Part shown: positions 23,025 to 29,403 of the stretch, piece after piece
Position numbering within the stretch: position 1 is the stretch's first letter
How the letters are laid out: each line of letters starts with the position of its first letter
DNA from: Leisingera sp. SS27
GTDB taxonomy: Bacteria; Pseudomonadota; Alphaproteobacteria; Rhodobacterales; Rhodobacteraceae
Assembly: GCF_028368855.1 (NCBI RefSeq)
Contig: NZ_JAQNCY010000009.1
Location: forward strand, 62,001 to 126,000
Direction: 5' to 3'
DNA length: 64,000 bases
Made by a program: the position numbers and the translations under genes
Notes under the pieces: model-generated
Told to the model about the DNA's origin: nothing
Database searches by the model: none
Seen by the model: only the letters and a program-made list of their open reading frames with translations

Positions 23025-23465
23025 TTAGTTGGTGCCGTTTGCCCTTTGCAGTTCCCGCACATACCGGGTGATGCTCTTGACGTCTCCGTCTGTCAGCCCC
23101 TGTTGCGGAGGCATGCTGCCGAAGTTCCAGTGGTGTGCCCTCACGCCATTGCGGACCGCGCGCAGGAAGGCCGCGTCGCCATGGTGGGATGGTTCATAGA
23201 TCTTGTGAACAAGCGGCGGCCCCATACCGTTGCGCCCCGCGCCATTGTCGCCATGGCATTCGGCGCAGACCGCATCAAAGGCACGCTTGCCGATAACTGC
23301 TGGAGCGCTCAACTCCGGCGGCAATTGGACAGCGGCAAGCGGGGCGCCCGGCTCCAGAACTGTGCGCTGCGTGGTTGCACCTTTTCCGCCTGCGCTGCTG
23401 TACACAAAGTAAGCTGCCGCCGCTGACACGGTTGCGGCAGCTGTAATGGCAATAATTTTCCTCAT
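23025..23465 (-). CDS. small membrane-anchored or periplasmic cytochrome c
   Basis: 146 residues. The N-terminal hydrophobic segment (about 5-23) is a signal or anchor. One c-type heme site CAECH (Cys67, Cys70, His71) and a distal Met118 in FGSMPPQ define a class I mono-heme cytochrome. ITRYVRELQRAN is the C-terminal helix that packs on the N-terminal one. It would carry electrons in the periplasm. It is the last gene of the minus-strand copper-type cluster, 15 nt after the ABC membrane-domain gene, and might accept electrons from or deliver them to the multicopper oxidase or other redox partners; that is inference. Confidence 0.9.
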   Translation of the reverse strand: MRKIIAITAAATVSAAAAYFVYSSAGGKGATTQRTVLEPGAPLAAVQLPPELSAPAVIGKRAFDAVCAECHGDNGAGRNGMGPPLVHKIYEPSHHGDAAFLRAVRNGVRAHHWNFGSMPPQQGLTDGDVKSITRYVRELQRANGTN

Positions 23466-23480
23466 GAGGCTCTCTTTTTC

Positions 23481-24731
23481 TTAGTTGGGGAGTGAAATGC
23501 CGCGCGCGGCAGGAGTTGGGGGAAGGCTGTGCCGGCTTGCTGCAGGCGCCGGCCCGCGTGCCCCGCCGGAGCGGGATGCAAAGGCGCGGATTTCCTGATA
23601 GCGGATCCGCACATCTTCGCTTTGCTGGTAGAAACGGAACAGATCCTTCAACGGAGAGGAGTAATCCTTGTGCGCCGCCAGCATCGCCACAAGCGCACCC
23701 AGCGAAACCCGCTCCTGCAGCACGAAGTAACCGCCCAGCGAATAGAAAAGGAACGGGGTGAGGGCGGTCAGGAAGTTGTTGATGGCCTTGGCCAGAAATT
23801 TCAGCCGGTGAATCTGCAGGCGCAATTGCTGCAGTTGCCGGAAGCCTTGTGAAACAGGCAGCGTGCCTTGGCCTGCCTCCCGCATTTGCTGGTCAAGATG
23901 AACGCCAAGCTGGCGCATCGCTCGGATCCTTTCGCGGGACACGGCATTCACCTGCCGCTGCAGCCGCGGCACGATGATCAGCTGCAGCGGAAGCACCGTA
24001 AGGGCGGCCGCGGCGAGGATCGGATCCTGCACGAACATGAACAGGAGGATTGTCGCCAGGGTGCCGCCCTGCAGCAGCGGAACGGCCAGCAGTTCAGAAG
24101 CAAAGCCGCCGACTGGTTCAACCTCGGCGCCGAGAACCGGCATGATGGCGGGCTGGCGTTGCGCGGGCTGATCCCGCCGCCATTGGCGGTAGACCGCCAG
24201 CCGTATCCGGCGCGCGAAGCGTTCGGCGGCCCGTCCTTTGCAGATGTTAAGCCAGTATTTGTTGAGGCCATTGAGCAAAATTGCCGCCAAATAGGCACCA
24301 CAGAGCAGAAACAGCAGCGAAACTTGTGTAAGCTCATACTGCAGGACCGGAACCGCGCCGTCCTGGCCTTCTAAGACACGGTTCACGATCTGTTTGGGCA
24401 GTTCGAGCGTGAGGTACAGGATCGGCATGGCAGTGAGGCTGAGCAGGACAAGGGCCGCCTGCTGCTTGCCAGTGGCGCGCATTATCTGCCGCGGCAGGCT
24501 GGGCCAATTGCCGGCTGCGTTCAGCACCGGAGGGCGAACATTTGCAGAAGCCGCCTGATGCCGCCTGCGCAGCAGCATGGCCGCGTGGACAGCAAGGGTT
24601 GCCGCCAGCAGCGCAGGGGCAAGAACCAGCACCAGATGCATCATCGGATGCAGCCAGGCCGGCGCGCTGCTGTCGTAGCTGAAACCCAGCGCCGCCGCCG
24701 CGTCATGCGCAAGAGTGTGAAATTCAGGCAT
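23481..24731 (-). CDS. ABC exporter transmembrane domain without ATPase domain
   Basis: 416 residues. An extra N-terminal span (about 28-52) precedes a type I ABC exporter membrane domain of about six helices: QAALVLLSLTAMPILYLTLE, LLFLLCGAYLAAILLNGLNK, ILLFMFVQDPILAAAALTVL and FLFYSLGGYFVLQERVSLGALVAML. The stretch ALVAMLAAHKDYSSPLKDLF is the usual end of such domains. The protein then stops after a Pro/Ala-rich tail where a nucleotide-binding domain would normally begin. No Walker A, signature LSGGQ or Walker B is present here or in the 456 bp downstream. It lies between the cupredoxin and cytochrome c genes. It may pair with an ATPase encoded elsewhere or have lost transport function. Confidence 0.8.
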   Translation of the reverse strand: MPEFHTLAHDAAAALGFSYDSSAPAWLHPMMHLVLVLAPALLAATLAVHAAMLLRRRHQAASANVRPPVLNAAGNWPSLPRQIMRATGKQQAALVLLSLTAMPILYLTLELPKQIVNRVLEGQDGAVPVLQYELTQVSLLFLLCGAYLAAILLNGLNKYWLNICKGRAAERFARRIRLAVYRQWRRDQPAQRQPAIMPVLGAEVEPVGGFASELLAVPLLQGGTLATILLFMFVQDPILAAAALTVLPLQLIIVPRLQRQVNAVSRERIRAMRQLGVHLDQQMREAGQGTLPVSQGFRQLQQLRLQIHRLKFLAKAINNFLTALTPFLFYSLGGYFVLQERVSLGALVAMLAAHKDYSSPLKDLFRFYQQSEDVRIRYQEIRAFASRSGGARGPAPAASRHSLPPTPAARGISLPN

Positions 24732-24786
24732 CGTTTTCTCAGGTCTGTGTACCGGGAGGCGGGGATGGCCCGCCTCCCGTCTTAGC

Positions 24787-25485
24787 CTATTTCAGCGCTG
24801 TCACGGTCAGCTTGCCCTTGATCCGCTCGGCGAGAAATTCGATGGCGTCGCCGGCCTTCAGCTGGTCCAGCATCGCGTCATCGGCGACCCGGAAAACCAT
24901 GGTCATTGCCGGCATGTCCAGGTCCACCAGTTCTTCGTGTATGATGGTGACCTTGCCGGACTTGGCGTCGACCTTTTTGACCGTGCCCGCGGTAAAGGTG
25001 CCGCCGCCGTCCGCCAGAACAGCGACCGGCCCGTGCATGCCGGATTCATAGTGGCCCGGAATCAGGCAAGCGAACTCGAAGGTGCCTTCGTTGGAGAAAG
25101 TCCAGACCACTTCGCCGCTGGCGCCCGGGTCCAGGCGCACCGAGTTCGGGTCGTCATGCTCCATCTCCATCTTTGCCATCATCGCCTTGTGATGGACATT
25201 GCGCTCAGCCGTATCCAGCACGAACTCATGCTCCAGCTCGCCAGCGTTGGTGATCACGAATTTGACCGTTTCGCCCCTGGCAAAGGAGAAACTGGACGGC
25301 TCGAACAGCATCTCGCCGTCGTCGGTTTCCTTCATGGTGACGGCGACTTCCCGGTCCGCATGGGCGGCTTCGCCGGGCTTGCCGACTTCCATCTCATCGT
25401 GATGGCCGCCGCCGTGAGTGCCGCCGGCAAAAGCCGGAGCAGCGAAAAGAGCGCCAGCAAGGGCTGCGGATAGTATCTTGTTCAT
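24787..25485 (-). CDS. cupredoxin-CusF fusion, periplasmic copper-binding protein
   Basis: 232 residues. A signal peptide (1-20, ends APAFAG) is followed by a His-rich linker (GGTHGGGHHDEME). Residues about 45-150 form a plastocyanin-like cupredoxin: EHEFVLD gives one His, and FEFACLIPGHYESGM gives the Cys, His and Met of a type 1 copper site. Residues about 160-232 form a CusF-like domain with VTIIHEELVDLDMPAMTMVF: His and two Met of the Cu(I) site are kept, but the Trp that caps Cu(I) in E. coli CusF is replaced by Met. The fusion probably binds copper in the periplasm and may pass it to the oxidase or the TolC-linked exporter. Confidence 0.9.
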   Translation of the reverse strand: MNKILSAALAGALFAAPAFAGGTHGGGHHDEMEVGKPGEAAHADREVAVTMKETDDGEMLFEPSSFSFARGETVKFVITNAGELEHEFVLDTAERNVHHKAMMAKMEMEHDDPNSVRLDPGASGEVVWTFSNEGTFEFACLIPGHYESGMHGPVAVLADGGGTFTAGTVKKVDAKSGKVTIIHEELVDLDMPAMTMVFRVADDAMLDQLKAGDAIEFLAERIKGKLTVTALK

Positions 25486-25523
25486 GTCTGTTTCCTCGTC
25501 AGATTTGATTGGATGCCAAAGGG

Positions 25524-26882
25524 TCAGCCCTTGGCGGATGGTTTCGGGGAAATACGGGTCTGTGCGTCTTCGGCGCGGGTAAAGTCCGGCAGTTCGCCGG
25601 TCCATTCATAGGCCTGGGTGCCGGGCGGGTTTTCGTACCAGCCGGGATCGCTGTAGTCGTTTGCATCAATGCCTTCGCGCACCTTCACGACCGAGAACAT
25701 GCCGCCCATTTCCAGCGGCCCGTAGGGCCCCCAGCCGGCCATCATCGGCACGGTGTTGTCGGGCAGCGGCATCGACATCTCGCCCATATCCGCCATGCCT
25801 GCGGTGCCCATCGGCATGTATTCGGGCTGCAGGTTACGGATCTGGCCCGTCAGCTTGCGCTTGTCGGTGCCGATGAAGGTCGGGACGTCGTGGCCCATCG
25901 CGTTCATCGTGTGGTGCGACTTGTGACAATGGATCGCCCAGTCGCCCGGATGCACCGCGTCAAACTCATAGGCGCGCATGGCGCCGACGGGGATGTCGAT
26001 CGACACCTCCGGCCAGCGGGCGCTTTCGGGCACCCAGCCGCCGTCGGTGCAGGTGACCTCGAAGTCGTAGCCATGCATGTGGATCGGGTGGTTGGTCATG
26101 GTCAGGTTGCCGGTCCTGACGCGCACCCGGTCGCCCTGATTGACCACCAGCGGGTCGATGTCGGGGAAGATCCGGCTGTTCCAGCACCACAGGTTGAAGT
26201 CCGTCATCTCCATCACCCGCGGCACATAGGAGCCCGGGTCGATGTCGAAGGCGTTAAGCATGATCAGGAAATCCCGGTCCACCCGCATGAAATCCGGGTC
26301 CTTGGGATGCACGATGAACATGCCCATCATCCCCATCGCCATCTGCACCATCTCATCCGCGTGCGGGTGGTACATGAAGGTGCCGGATTTGATCAGGTCG
26401 AACTCATAGACAAAAGTCTTGCCGGGCGGGATGCCCGGATGGCTGAGGCCGCCGACCCCGTCCATGCCCGAAGGCAGGATCATCCCGTGCCAGTGCACCG
26501 TGGTATGTTCGGGCAGCTTGTTGGTCACGAAAATCCGCACCCGGTCGCCCTCCACCGCCTCGATGGTGGGGCCGGTGGATTGGCCGTTATAGCCCCACAG
26601 ATGCGCGGTCATGCCCTCGGCCAGCTCGCGCTCGACCGGTTCCGCGACAAGGTGGAATTCCTTCACGCCGTTGTTCATCCGGAACGGCAGGGTCCAGCCG
26701 TTCAAGGTGACCACCGGGTTGTAGTCCGGCCCGGTCGCGGGGGTCAGCGGCGGCTGGGTGGCGGCGCTGTCCATGGTTGCGGCCTCAGGCAGGCCCATGT
26801 TGGCGGTCTTGCCCCAGGCCTGGCTGGACACCAGCGCAGCACCCGCGGCACCGGCCCCAAGCAGTTGACGTCTGTTCATCAT
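25524..26882 (-). CDS. Tat-exported multicopper oxidase (CopA/CueO/laccase type)
   Basis: 452 residues. A Tat signal (NRRQLLGAGAAGAAL) begins the protein. All four copper motifs are intact: TVHWHG, MYHPHADEM, HPIHMHG and HCHKSHH followed by Met as axial ligand. These give one type 1 site and the trinuclear oxygen-reducing cluster. Met-rich segments (MVQMAMGMMGMF and MPMGTAGMADMGEMSMP) resemble those that bind Cu(I) in CueO and PcoA. It would oxidise toxic Cu(I) or a phenolic substrate in the periplasm. I start at the first of two adjacent ATG codons, 9 nt after AAAGGA. It lies 14 nt after the TolC-type gene. Confidence 0.95.
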   Translation of the reverse strand: MMNRRQLLGAGAAGAALVSSQAWGKTANMGLPEAATMDSAATQPPLTPATGPDYNPVVTLNGWTLPFRMNNGVKEFHLVAEPVERELAEGMTAHLWGYNGQSTGPTIEAVEGDRVRIFVTNKLPEHTTVHWHGMILPSGMDGVGGLSHPGIPPGKTFVYEFDLIKSGTFMYHPHADEMVQMAMGMMGMFIVHPKDPDFMRVDRDFLIMLNAFDIDPGSYVPRVMEMTDFNLWCWNSRIFPDIDPLVVNQGDRVRVRTGNLTMTNHPIHMHGYDFEVTCTDGGWVPESARWPEVSIDIPVGAMRAYEFDAVHPGDWAIHCHKSHHTMNAMGHDVPTFIGTDKRKLTGQIRNLQPEYMPMGTAGMADMGEMSMPLPDNTVPMMAGWGPYGPLEMGGMFSVVKVREGIDANDYSDPGWYENPPGTQAYEWTGELPDFTRAEDAQTRISPKPSAKG

Positions 26883-26896
26883 GTTATGTGATCCTT

Positions 26897-28357
26897 TCAA
26901 TGGCCTGCGCCGTTGCCGGCGGCGATTTCAGCGCTGCCGCTCTGCGGGGCTGATCCTGCGCTGCCGCCGTAGATCGCGGCGCTGACATTTGCCTGGGCCA
27001 GCCAGAAATCGCGCTTGGCATTGGCCGCCTCCAGCGAACCCGCCAGCTTCTCGCGCACGTCGGTCAGCAATTCGAAGGTGCTGGTGATCATGCCGTTGTA
27101 ACTGAGCAGCCCTTCCTCCTCGATTGTCCTGCGCAGCGGCACCAGCACATCGCGGTAGTGGCGCGCGATCTCATAGGAGGAGTGATAGGCCAGCTCTGCG
27201 CTGCGGGCCTCAGACCGGACATTGACCGCCCGTTCCGCCAGAGCATTCGCCGCCTGCAAATATGCGAGCTCTGCCTTACGCATCCGGGCCTTGCCGGTGT
27301 CGAATACCGGAATGGCGAACTCCAGTTCCAGCTGGGGCAGGGTTTCCGTATGGGTTTCGCCATCCTCCCTCTCACGTTCCGCCTCGGCCCCGGCAATCAG
27401 CTCCAGATCAGTGACCAGCCGGGTCCGGTCCGTCAGGCCAAAGGCGCGGGCCTGTGCTTCCAGACCGAGCTTGGCGACTTTCAGATCGACACGGTTTGCC
27501 AGTGCCGCCTTTTCGATCGACGCAACCCGCGGCAGGGACTTCGGCAGGGGTGGCAGCGCATCGGGCACATAATAGCTGGCATCGCTGCCCCACAGGCCCA
27601 TCAGGTGTGTGAGTTCTTCCTTGGCCAGCTGCGCCTCCAGCCTGGCACGGGCGAGTTGGCCCGCTAGCTCCGCATTGAAGGCGAACTCCCGCGCCTGTCC
27701 CGCCTTGTTCAGCGCACCGGTCTTGCCAAGCTGGCTGGCCAGCTCGGCCCCGGCTGCAGCCGTCCCGCTGGCCTTGCGCAGATAGCTCAGCCGTTCAAAC
27801 GCGGCCACGGAATTGATCCAGGCAGTCCGGGTCTGGCCTGCCAGCGCCAATGTATCGTTCACTGCGTTCAGCTGCGCCTGCTGAAACCGCGCCTCAGCCA
27901 CCGCGATGCGCTGTTTGCGGGTCTTCACGTCCAGCAGGTTCACGGCAATGGTCGATTCCAGCGCCCGGTACAGGCCCAGTTCCGGCGCGCCGATCCCCAT
28001 CAGGCCGATTGAGACCACGGGGTTTTCCGGCGTCATCTGCTGCCAAACGTCTGCAGCCGAAAGGCCAACCGCAGCAAAAGACGCCTGCAGCCCCTTGTTG
28101 TTCAAAAGCGCCGCCTGCACAGCCGTATCCGCAGAGATTGTCTTGCCATGAACCAGTTGCCGCACTTCCTCGGCCAGCGCTTCGGTCTGGGCCTGTGTCT
28201 GCGCAAAGGCCGTGCGCTTGCCGATGGCGGCCGAGGTCTGGCTGGCGACCTCCTGAAACCCGGCTTGTGGGCTGGTGAATTTTTCCGGCACCGCCGCAGA
28301 ACAGGCGGCCAGAACCAAGGGCGACGCCAGAAGGACGTGCCAAGTTTTTGCTGACAT
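26897..28357 (-). CDS. TolC-family outer membrane efflux lipoprotein
   Basis: 486 residues. The signal ends in LVLAAC, so Cys19 is lipidated as in CusC/OprM-type channels. Two OEP repeats follow, each with long helices: about 75-270 (ALLNNKGLQASFAAVGLSAADVWQQMTPENPVVS) and about 285-460 (RVDLKVAKLGLEAQARAFGL, then TYPICAL coil-rich AELAYLQAANALAERAVNVR). The C-terminal tail is Gly/Ala/Ser-rich. It should form a trimeric outer-membrane duct for a tripartite exporter, but no RND pump or adaptor is present in the window. Its start overlaps the stop of the small lipoprotein (TGATG). Confidence 0.93.
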   Translation of the reverse strand: MSAKTWHVLLASPLVLAACSAAVPEKFTSPQAGFQEVASQTSAAIGKRTAFAQTQAQTEALAEEVRQLVHGKTISADTAVQAALLNNKGLQASFAAVGLSAADVWQQMTPENPVVSIGLMGIGAPELGLYRALESTIAVNLLDVKTRKQRIAVAEARFQQAQLNAVNDTLALAGQTRTAWINSVAAFERLSYLRKASGTAAAGAELASQLGKTGALNKAGQAREFAFNAELAGQLARARLEAQLAKEELTHLMGLWGSDASYYVPDALPPLPKSLPRVASIEKAALANRVDLKVAKLGLEAQARAFGLTDRTRLVTDLELIAGAEAEREREDGETHTETLPQLELEFAIPVFDTGKARMRKAELAYLQAANALAERAVNVRSEARSAELAYHSSYEIARHYRDVLVPLRRTIEEEGLLSYNGMITSTFELLTDVREKLAGSLEAANAKRDFWLAQANVSAAIYGGSAGSAPQSGSAEIAAGNGAGH

Positions 28358-28578
28358 CAGTTAGTCCCCTGCTGCTCGTTGACTTTACGCCAGGATGCGG
28401 GACCGCTTGGCTCGTGGCTTTCAAACCCCGAAAAGGGAGACCGGTAGTTCAAGCTGCGGTAGGGGCCAGTTGGTGCGGCAGCCTTCTGCAAGGCAGCAGC
28501 ATCGGGCAGCAACGCCGGTGAATTGGCGCACGCGCCCAGCAGCAGGGTGCCTGCCCCGGCCAGTAGAAGATATTTCAT
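28357..28578 (-). CDS. small lipoprotein
   Basis: 73 residues. Residues 1-17 (MKYLLLAGAGTLLLGAC) are a textbook lipoprotein signal with lipobox LGAC. The mature 56 residues are polar, with PYRSLNYRSPFSGFESHEPSGPASW, and have no recognised fold. The stop overlaps the ATG of the TolC-type gene, so the two are translationally coupled. By position it is a companion of the outer-membrane channel, possibly a small periplasmic partner. I do not recognise a family. Confidence 0.75.
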   Translation of the reverse strand: MKYLLLAGAGTLLLGACANSPALLPDAAALQKAAAPTGPYRSLNYRSPFSGFESHEPSGPASWRKVNEQQGTN

Positions 28579-28661
28579 GTGATTTTCCTGAGAATTATCC
28601 GCACGGCTCCTGCATCTGCGTGCAGGAGGGGGTTAGAGACCGCAGAAGCGGTTCAGAAATC

Positions 28662-29051
28662 TCAGGTTCTTGGAGGCCGCAAATGCGCGAGCTGTTCCCG
28701 GGACGGCAGCTGCGCATTTTCCTGCTTCCAGCGAATTGGCTGGGTTACAAAGAATTCTTCCGGCTGCAGAGACAGCACGGCGACCGCCATGCAGGCACCT
28801 GCGCAGCAATTCGCACTGTCAGGGTTCAGGGGTGCGTCCTGGCCATTCGCTATACCGGTCCGGGCAGCATCATGTGCCGCATCGGCCATTGCTGGACCAG
28901 TATGGCTGTCCCCGGAATGCAGGGCAGCGGCATTGCTGTGGTGACCTGCAATGGAATGCGCAGCGGATGGCAACGTAAAACCCAGCGCCAGGATCGCTGC
29001 ACACGCAACGGTCAGCCTGATGAGCCGGAAAATATCTGCCAGAAACGCCAT
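28662..29051 (-). CDS. His-rich secreted or membrane protein, first gene of the copper-type cluster
   Basis: 129 residues from the ATG at 29051, chosen because AGGAG lies 10 nt before it. Residues 10-30 (LIRLTVACAAILALGFTLPS) form a signal or anchor. The next 50 residues are rich in His and Ala (AHSIAGHHSNAAALHSGDSH), followed by CCAGACM, a cluster of Cys and Met. Both patterns suit metal binding. It resembles the short DUF2946-like proteins often found next to copper genes, but I cannot confirm that. It is the promoter-proximal gene of the minus-strand cluster, 83 nt before the small lipoprotein. Confidence 0.65.
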   Translation of the reverse strand: MAFLADIFRLIRLTVACAAILALGFTLPSAAHSIAGHHSNAAALHSGDSHTGPAMADAAHDAARTGIANGQDAPLNPDSANCCAGACMAVAVLSLQPEEFFVTQPIRWKQENAQLPSREQLAHLRPPRT

Positions 29052-29403
29052 GCCGGTATTTCTCCTGACGGGACTGGTCCGCGTCAAGACGGCAATCATG
29101 CATTGGGAGCACAAATTTGCGTAATTCAGACATGTTTTTCCTCAGATTTCCGGCTTGGCCGCAGGCCTTTGGACGGATCCTCCAACTCTCCAGCGCAGGA
29201 GGGTTGAGGCCGGGCGCAAGTGGTGATTCGTGTGCTGGGCTGGTCAGTTAGGCCGGTATCCGACATCTGCCGAACTGCCTGTTTCCACGTCGCTGAAATC
29301 TGGGGAATACTGCGCGGCGCAAGGAATGCGTCCGGCACCACATGGCGGTGAAATCGTACCGCGGGGCCTTGCTCTTTGGCACCGCGTTGCCTACCAGCCG
29401 GGC
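29052..29403. other. 350-bp divergent promoter region
   Basis: This gap separates the copper-type cluster (minus) from the metallophosphoesterase gene (plus). Frames crossing it have no ribosome site or recognisable product. On the minus strand TTGACG followed by a GGAC-CA-GTCC dyad lies about 20-40 bp before the first gene and could be the regulated promoter. No MerR-type regulator gene is nearby. Confidence 0.35.

Follow-up and report, generated by a model that had tools for sequence, protein, structure and literature searches.

A conserved ABC-exporter membrane domain lacking an ATPase in alphaproteobacterial copper gene clusters: a possible ATP-independent transporter

A seven-gene copper-type cluster of Leisingera sp. 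SS27 (Rhodobacteraceae) encodes a 416-residue protein with the transmembrane domain (TMD) of an ATP-binding cassette (ABC) exporter and no nucleotide-binding domain (NBD). The cluster lies on the minus strand at 23025-29051 of the window, the 64,000-nucleotide stretch analysed here (assembly GCF_028368855.1, contig NZ_JAQNCY010000009.1, positions 62,001 to 126,000), and the gene of interest, the TMD gene, occupies 23481-24731 (minus strand). Its relatives form a family, class I below, which is linked consistently to copper genes. By analogy with SbmA/BacA and with the membrane domains of LmrA and MsbA, the protein may be an ATP-independent transporter, most likely driven by an ion gradient, which would move copper or a copper ligand together with a cupredoxin/CusF protein; the probability of this reading can be put at roughly 0.5. 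Secondary transport had not been considered in the initial annotation of this DNA. That annotation had described a seven-gene copper-type cluster with a membrane half that stops at the start of the NBD, a description borne out by the reading frames, Pfam matches, profile comparison and structural model.

Taken alone, the TMD protein scores 24.3 bits against Pfam ABC_membrane, below the cut-off of 28, and a Protein Data Bank (PDB) search with the single sequence gives no match. A 73-row profile of the protein matches ABC exporters (Sav1866, E 1e-9). The AlphaFold2 model of the 416 residues (mean predicted local distance difference test, pLDDT, 79.6; predicted template modelling score, pTM, 0.73) contains core helices at residues 78-120, 136-186, 196-235 (with one break), 237-284, 291-338 and 344-389, together with a long additional helix at 27-62 and a short one at 2-14. 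Residues 74-390 align to the TMD of TmrB (6ran_B residues 4-321) with Z 24.3 and a root-mean-square deviation of 3.0 over 302 residues. As this alignment spans the whole TmrB TMD, the stop of the gene falls at the TMD/NBD junction, and the model predicts a complete six-helix type IV ABC-exporter fold that ends where the NBD should begin. The core corresponds to residues 78-389 (23565-24500, minus strand), and its intracellular loops, at about 187-195 and 285-290, are short. The protein is nevertheless more than the bare membrane half first described: residues 1-77 (24501-24731, minus strand) add an acidic segment and one extra helix, and a Pfam search with this extension alone gives nothing credible (best E 0.08). 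Across the family, residues 1-26 contain on average 0.8 K+R versus 3.9 D+E. Since helix 27-62 runs into the cytoplasmic start of the first transmembrane helix (TM1), the N terminus is probably periplasmic.

The absence of the NBD is a property of the family. A scan of named genomes, of which the best 80 of 242 confirmed stretches were kept, provided 72 class I loci in 29 named genera and eight stretches with a longer paralogue. Six class I loci were left out of the counts below: L079 (broken), L139 (missed by the gene caller, yet with an open frame ending 414 residues past the match start), and L086, L092, L093 and L097, whose proteins are identical to that of another locus. The remaining 66 and the window make up 67 aligned copies, all of which stop at 382-453 residues, just past TM6, with the same boundary kept at identities down to 38%. 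Within the genus, the ratio of nonsynonymous to synonymous substitution rates (dN/dS) of the TMD gene is 0.145-0.212, and the gene is under purifying selection; for one pair, the ratio is 0.12 in the core and 0.5 in the C-terminal tail. The common end point and the selection rule out an isolated truncation or pseudogene and uphold the initial argument against simple decay. Moreover, the 28 longer homologues sampled have a decayed NBD; an intact NBD in homologues, which would have refuted the initial argument, occurs in none of the copies aligned or sampled.

These longer homologues (class III) are widespread alphaproteobacterial proteins of about 870-1050 residues in which an exporter TMD is followed by a long NBD-like region; some of the 28 sequences sampled are near-copies of one another. 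The LSGGQ signature is missing in all 28 and the GxxxxGK[ST] motif in 27, being kept only in L168. Class III thus appears to be a pseudo-ABC family with a decayed NBD, motif loss not being proof of lost ATP use. The canonical exporters of the Leisingera genome served as controls (12 rows, two of them the same gene); they were picked by their Walker A motif, so that only the signature motif is an independent control. One class III protein was tested against Pfam, that of L042:5929-8925 (contig C25 of the Leisingera genome), and carries a C-terminal cyclic-nucleotide domain. A separate 155-residue gene stands beside the class III gene in L068 and L069.

The intracellular loops through which an exporter would engage its ATPase are altered in class I. 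Measured from anchor to anchor, the second loop (ICL2) has 37-41 residues in 67/67 class I copies versus 46 in 28/28 class III sequences, and 44-47 in the canonical exporters. For the first loop (ICL1) the lengths are 28 residues (class I), 32 (class III) and 27-35 (canonical exporters), one partial canonical row having been set aside because it gave a meaningless value of 2. The coupling motif of ICL1 is present in none of the 67 class I copies (F-x5-G-E/Q) versus 27 of 28 class III sequences (F-x5-G/A-E/Q). To judge from sequence and model, both coupling helices have probably been lost. Neighbouring genes were counted within 6 kb, 16 of the 66 loci having less than 2 kb on one side. An ABC ATPase gene occurs at only four loci (343, 913, 362 and 270 residues), each time separated from the TMD gene by roughly 4 kb or more, and an NBD encoded next door is ruled out. 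ATPase matches are found near 13 of 21 control loci: ten of 12 class III loci, where the NBD-like region of the protein itself lies inside the stretch, and three of nine class II loci. The altered loops and the decayed NBDs of the longer homologues make an ATPase supplied in trans unlikely, as far as local neighbourhoods go, no genome-wide partner search having been made.

Class II is a second TMD-only family of the same bacterial family, with 10 sampled members at 27-39% identity to the window protein; examples of about 304-323 residues include L058:9338-10309, L059:9045-9986, L061:5479-6393 and L066:9604-10530. Its ICL2 is also short (34-40 residues), and no copper gene is found nearby at any of nine loci. 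In the tree, the exporters of the Leisingera genome stand apart from a joint group of classes I, II and III (support 100/99). Within this group the dead-NBD proteins are supported at 43/61 and the copper family at 82/49, with long branches flagged, and the tree does not settle in what order the TMD-only and dead-NBD families arose. A structural model of a dead-NBD relative, built from six sequences, was too poor for use (pLDDT 64.9).

Of the 66 class I loci, 64 have one or more copper genes within 6 kb, versus none of the 21 paralogue (class II and III) loci; the exceptions are L135 and the contig-edge locus L142. Cupredoxin/CusF genes are the most frequent neighbours (60/66), followed by multicopper oxidases (57/66), cytochrome c (35/66) and TolC-type genes (30/66), and then by CopB (19/66), CusA (17/66) and copper ATPases (11/66). 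The arrangement is also regular: the cupredoxin/CusF gene ends at most 600 bases upstream of the TMD gene on the same strand at 54 loci, and cytochrome c follows within 400 bases downstream at 31. In the window the corresponding gaps are 55 and 15 bases. In Ruegeria pomeroyi DSS-3 the order is multicopper oxidase, copB, cupredoxin and TMD gene (SPO_RS21695), with a copper P-type ATPase on the opposite strand. The absence of a pump, remarked upon at the outset, therefore holds for the window cluster but not for all of its relatives, nor for the genome, which encodes two copper P-type ATPases elsewhere. Two paralogues stand outside the 21 controls. L063, assigned to class II by the tree, lacks copper genes over the same 6-kb range. 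The class III gene at L120:10699-13797 adjoins a class I copper cluster and so has copper genes nearby, and this is the sole place seen with both paralogues as neighbours.

Conservation within the class I protein is of two kinds. Residues E110, K113, E170, R174, R177, E203, E205, Q221, Q250, K311, K315, N319 and K355 are near-invariant in class I; this core set is mostly kept in class III (position 110 is E or D in 24/28) and not conserved in canonical exporters. The N-terminal extension, missing from class III, contains the near-invariant H9 (64/67), W26 (66/67), H28 (64/67) and H32 (64/67), a His/Trp segment which is peculiar to the copper family. H354, found in 58/67 class I copies, is replaced by Tyr in 25/28 class III sequences.

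For the working of the protein, including the substrate, the energy source and the direction of movement, we infer the following. The TMD protein would most likely work as an inner-membrane homodimer. As in type IV ABC exporters, the core helices, six per subunit, would form a cavity with alternating access. A proton gradient would most likely drive the movement through the membrane and gate charges E110, K113, E170, R174, R177, E203, E205, K311, K315 and K355, in place of the NBD. Through the N-terminal segment and its helix, His9, Trp26, His28 and His32 would lie on the periplasmic side and might there pass copper to, or take it from, the cupredoxin/CusF protein of the adjacent upstream gene. 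Further handling of the copper in the envelope, by oxidation, binding or expulsion, would fall to the oxidase, cytochrome c, TolC-type channel and lipoproteins. A tentative evolutionary scenario, to which we give somewhat less than even odds, is that this was a second independent conversion of an ABC exporter into an ATP-free transporter. The ATPase would have decayed first, in the dead-NBD lineage. The TMD-only family would then have lost its coupling loops, gained the periplasmic His/Trp segment, come to move copper or a copper ligand with cupredoxin/CusF, and dispersed through marine alphaproteobacteria, both in chromosomes and on conjugative plasmids.

Several observations weigh against transport of copper by the TMD protein. 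One of the 12 canonical exporter rows also has a short ICL1 (27 residues), so that the length of this loop alone proves little. The gene evolves faster than the neighbouring oxidase (dN/dS within the genus 0.03-0.07) and TolC gene (0.06-0.10), cytochrome c ranging from 0.10 to 0.44. Five of 21 genomes of the genus have no full-length or near-full-length copy. G008 retains all of the other six genes, but between those for cupredoxin-CusF and cytochrome c just a TMD remnant with stops is left (L052:9495-9943). In G001 (L033/L048) the TMD gene breaks off around residue 370, and its end is found on a different contig, together with the beginning of the cytochrome c gene; these two cases indicate that the gene is at times dispensable. 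Membership of SbmA/BacA by sequence was rejected: no match to Pfam PF05992 is listed at E up to 10, the HMMER filters dropping most weak matches, and hhalign against a PF05992 protein gives a probability of 1.2%. The conserved glutamates of class I (E110, E170, E203 and E205) would be only putative counterparts of the SLiPT-type glutamate ladder. No transport, expression or copper data were found for this protein.

The principal alternative is a membrane scaffold without transport, in which the exporter fold would be an anchor and the periplasmic His/Trp segment would gather cupredoxin/CusF, oxidase and cytochrome c for copper or electron transfer. The idea was raised in the initial annotation, and we would give it perhaps one chance in a few. 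The copper-specific His and Trp residues do lie mainly in the N-terminal segment, the redox genes are close at hand and no energy source is identifiable by sequence. An anchor, however, should need neither near-invariant charged and polar residues throughout the core helices nor the degree of purifying selection observed in the core of the pair compared. A secondary transporter of another substrate, such as a thiol, peptide, haem or metallophore serving the envelope copper system or cytochrome c, seems rather improbable. Its appeal comes from the Foldseek neighbours of the model, which include the haem transporter CydDC and peptide exporters, and from the cytochrome c gene just downstream at nearly half of the loci; fold neighbours, however, are uninformative on substrate, and cytochrome c is far less constant a companion than copper genes as a whole.

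The other suggestion made initially, a half-transporter drawing on an ABC ATPase whose gene lies elsewhere in the genome, is now disfavoured and very unlikely. Split TMD and NBD genes do occur in the YddA family (PMC13316013). Against this, the coupling loops are altered in every aligned copy, the few ATPase genes in the vicinity are distant and of four different lengths, and plasmid-borne copies could be stranded from a fixed partner. Least probable of all is a decaying relic of an ABC exporter. The G008 fragment, the broken copy of G001 and the variable C-terminal tail would fit decay, but the boundary shared with 66 other divergent copies and a dN/dS well below 1 already largely refute it. 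An ATP-independent transporter acting on copper or a copper ligand thus remains the reading that we favour.

The cluster itself consists of seven intact, uninterrupted frames, all on the minus strand. Reading from 29051 towards 23025, it begins with a 129-residue secreted envelope protein containing His and Cys (28662-29051) and a 73-residue lipoprotein with an LLGAC lipobox (28357-28578); both were recognised from sequence and are present in relatives of the cluster, and neither has a Pfam family above cut-off. They are followed by a 486-residue TolC-family outer-membrane protein (26897-28357; Pfam OEP 2e-9), with a lipobox, LVLAAC, read from the sequence, and by a 452-residue multicopper oxidase (25524-26882; Cu-oxidase_3 2e-39, Cu-oxidase_2 4e-29), whose TAT_signal match is weak (0.004, below cut-off). 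Next comes a 232-residue plastocyanin/CopI-like cupredoxin fused to CusF (24787-25485; Copper-bind 6e-10, CusF_Ec 1e-23), with NCBIfam CopI matches under their cut-offs. The TMD gene is followed by that of a 146-residue c-type cytochrome with one CxxCH haem site and an N-terminal signal or anchor (23025-23465; Cytochrom_C 1.7e-12). Upstream of the cluster, at 29185-29204 (minus strand), a 20-bp dyad, ACCCTCC-N6-GGAGAGT, is a candidate operator. It is the sole match in the 64 kb, hit once on each strand, 0.06 being expected with one mismatch allowed, the pattern having been chosen after viewing the sequence. Of 13 upstream regions, the window counted, 10 have a like dyad 152 bases ahead of the first gene, and L027 and L034 have weaker variants. 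The dyad presumably resembles CueR-type operators.

Other gene sets also accompany the family. In L140 (344-3993), L138 and L136 a CusF-like gene and the TMD gene are found with genes for a PCu(A)C-like protein (a weak match, tested in L138), a cytochrome c' and, as tested in L140, a c-type cytochrome of larger size. The TMD thus also pairs with a second set of copper/haem genes. At L053:6899-8182 and L092:10773-12089, cytochrome c is followed by a BNR-repeat-like protein of about 430 residues, and genes of similar length occupy this place in other clusters. The window forms part of contig C30 of the 4.8-Mb Leisingera genome, and in the same genome a 199-residue open frame (C23:382706-383128) matches only the first half of ABC_membrane and is perhaps a broken exporter.

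Within the genus, 16 of 21 genomes, this one included, carry the TMD gene (54-87% identity to the window; the copy of G001 is the broken one). Outside the genus its distribution is patchy: class I is present in at least six of 248 genomes in a survey of the bacterial family. A class-wide sample of 385 genomes, with up to four candidates per genome scored, gave three clear cases among the matches listed (this genome, G372 and G642) and a partial one in G475. The genes tested from the flanks of the window cluster (YmdB, 5-FCL, MgtE) have no match in loci L022-L052, 20 of which are class I loci from this genus, and the cluster has therefore moved between sites. Class I relatives are found on plasmids, among them the megaplasmid of R. 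pomeroyi, conjugative Phaeobacter plasmids and plasmids of Phaeobacter inhibens. Of the 30 plasmid records listed, nine (H1-H7, H28, H29) label the TMD-only protein 'ABC transporter ATP-binding protein', which is misleading since no ATP-binding domain is present. Among the viral contigs searched there is no relative of the protein, and no description of it was found among the matches listed in a literature search that covered mainly open-licence articles.

Copper resistance of Gram-negative bacteria is usually attributed to P-type ATPases, resistance-nodulation-division (RND) pumps and periplasmic oxidases or chaperones. If the proposed function is correct, a conserved ATP-free exporter fold in copper clusters would add a new type of membrane component to copper handling. 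It would also put to the test whether ABC exporter TMDs can turn into secondary transporters repeatedly, a change of which SbmA/BacA are the known natural example. Tractable strains with the gene include R. pomeroyi DSS-3 and, on plasmids, P. inhibens.

Among known systems, periplasmic copper clusters of the CopI/CusF/CopA type share with the window cupredoxin, CusF, multicopper oxidase, CopB and TolC-type proteins. In the NosDFY copper maturation system NosF presumably supplies the ATPase, unlike the window cluster. In the parts of the review consulted, NosDFY likewise has an ABC membrane protein that serves a periplasmic copper enzyme, and no membrane protein like the present one is mentioned beside CopI or CusF (PMC7558416). 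Type IV ABC exporters (TmrAB, BmrCD, PCAT1, MsbA and CydDC) have the six-helix core in common with the TMD protein (Z 21-24 over about 300 residues), but they possess ATPase domains and coupling helices, both lacking in class I; no NBD bearing the Walker A, LSGGQ and Walker B motifs of an ATP-driven ABC transporter was found within the protein or encoded next to it. Closer in extent are LmrA-MD and MsbA-MD, exporter membrane domains cut near the TMD/NBD boundary, for which the portions of the reports consulted describe proton-coupled, secondary-active transport (PMC2704374, PMC4979069). According to the same portions, however, these are artificial laboratory truncations of full ABC transporters, and their substrates are drugs and salts.

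The nearest natural parallel is SbmA/BacA, the SLiPT family, descended from an ABC transporter, which lost the NBD and coupling helices, gained TM0 and is proton-driven, with E193 acting at the cytoplasmic gate (PMC13316013). Both have a type IV TMD without NBD or coupling helices, an extra N-terminal helix and conserved glutamates. SbmA/BacA, however, have two extra helices, TM0a and TM0b, where the TMD protein has one long and one short helix, and only class I is set in a copper gene context. The longer relatives also differ: in those of class I the NBD is decayed, whereas most members of the YddA family are described as full-length ABC transporters (PMC13316013). PF05992 matches occur in three of 31 genomes, the Leisingera genome not among them, and two of the matching proteins carry an NBD and are of BclA/YddA type rather than true SbmA. 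The TMD protein thus appears separate in origin from SbmA/BacA, and would be SLiPT-like in its working rather than by sequence.

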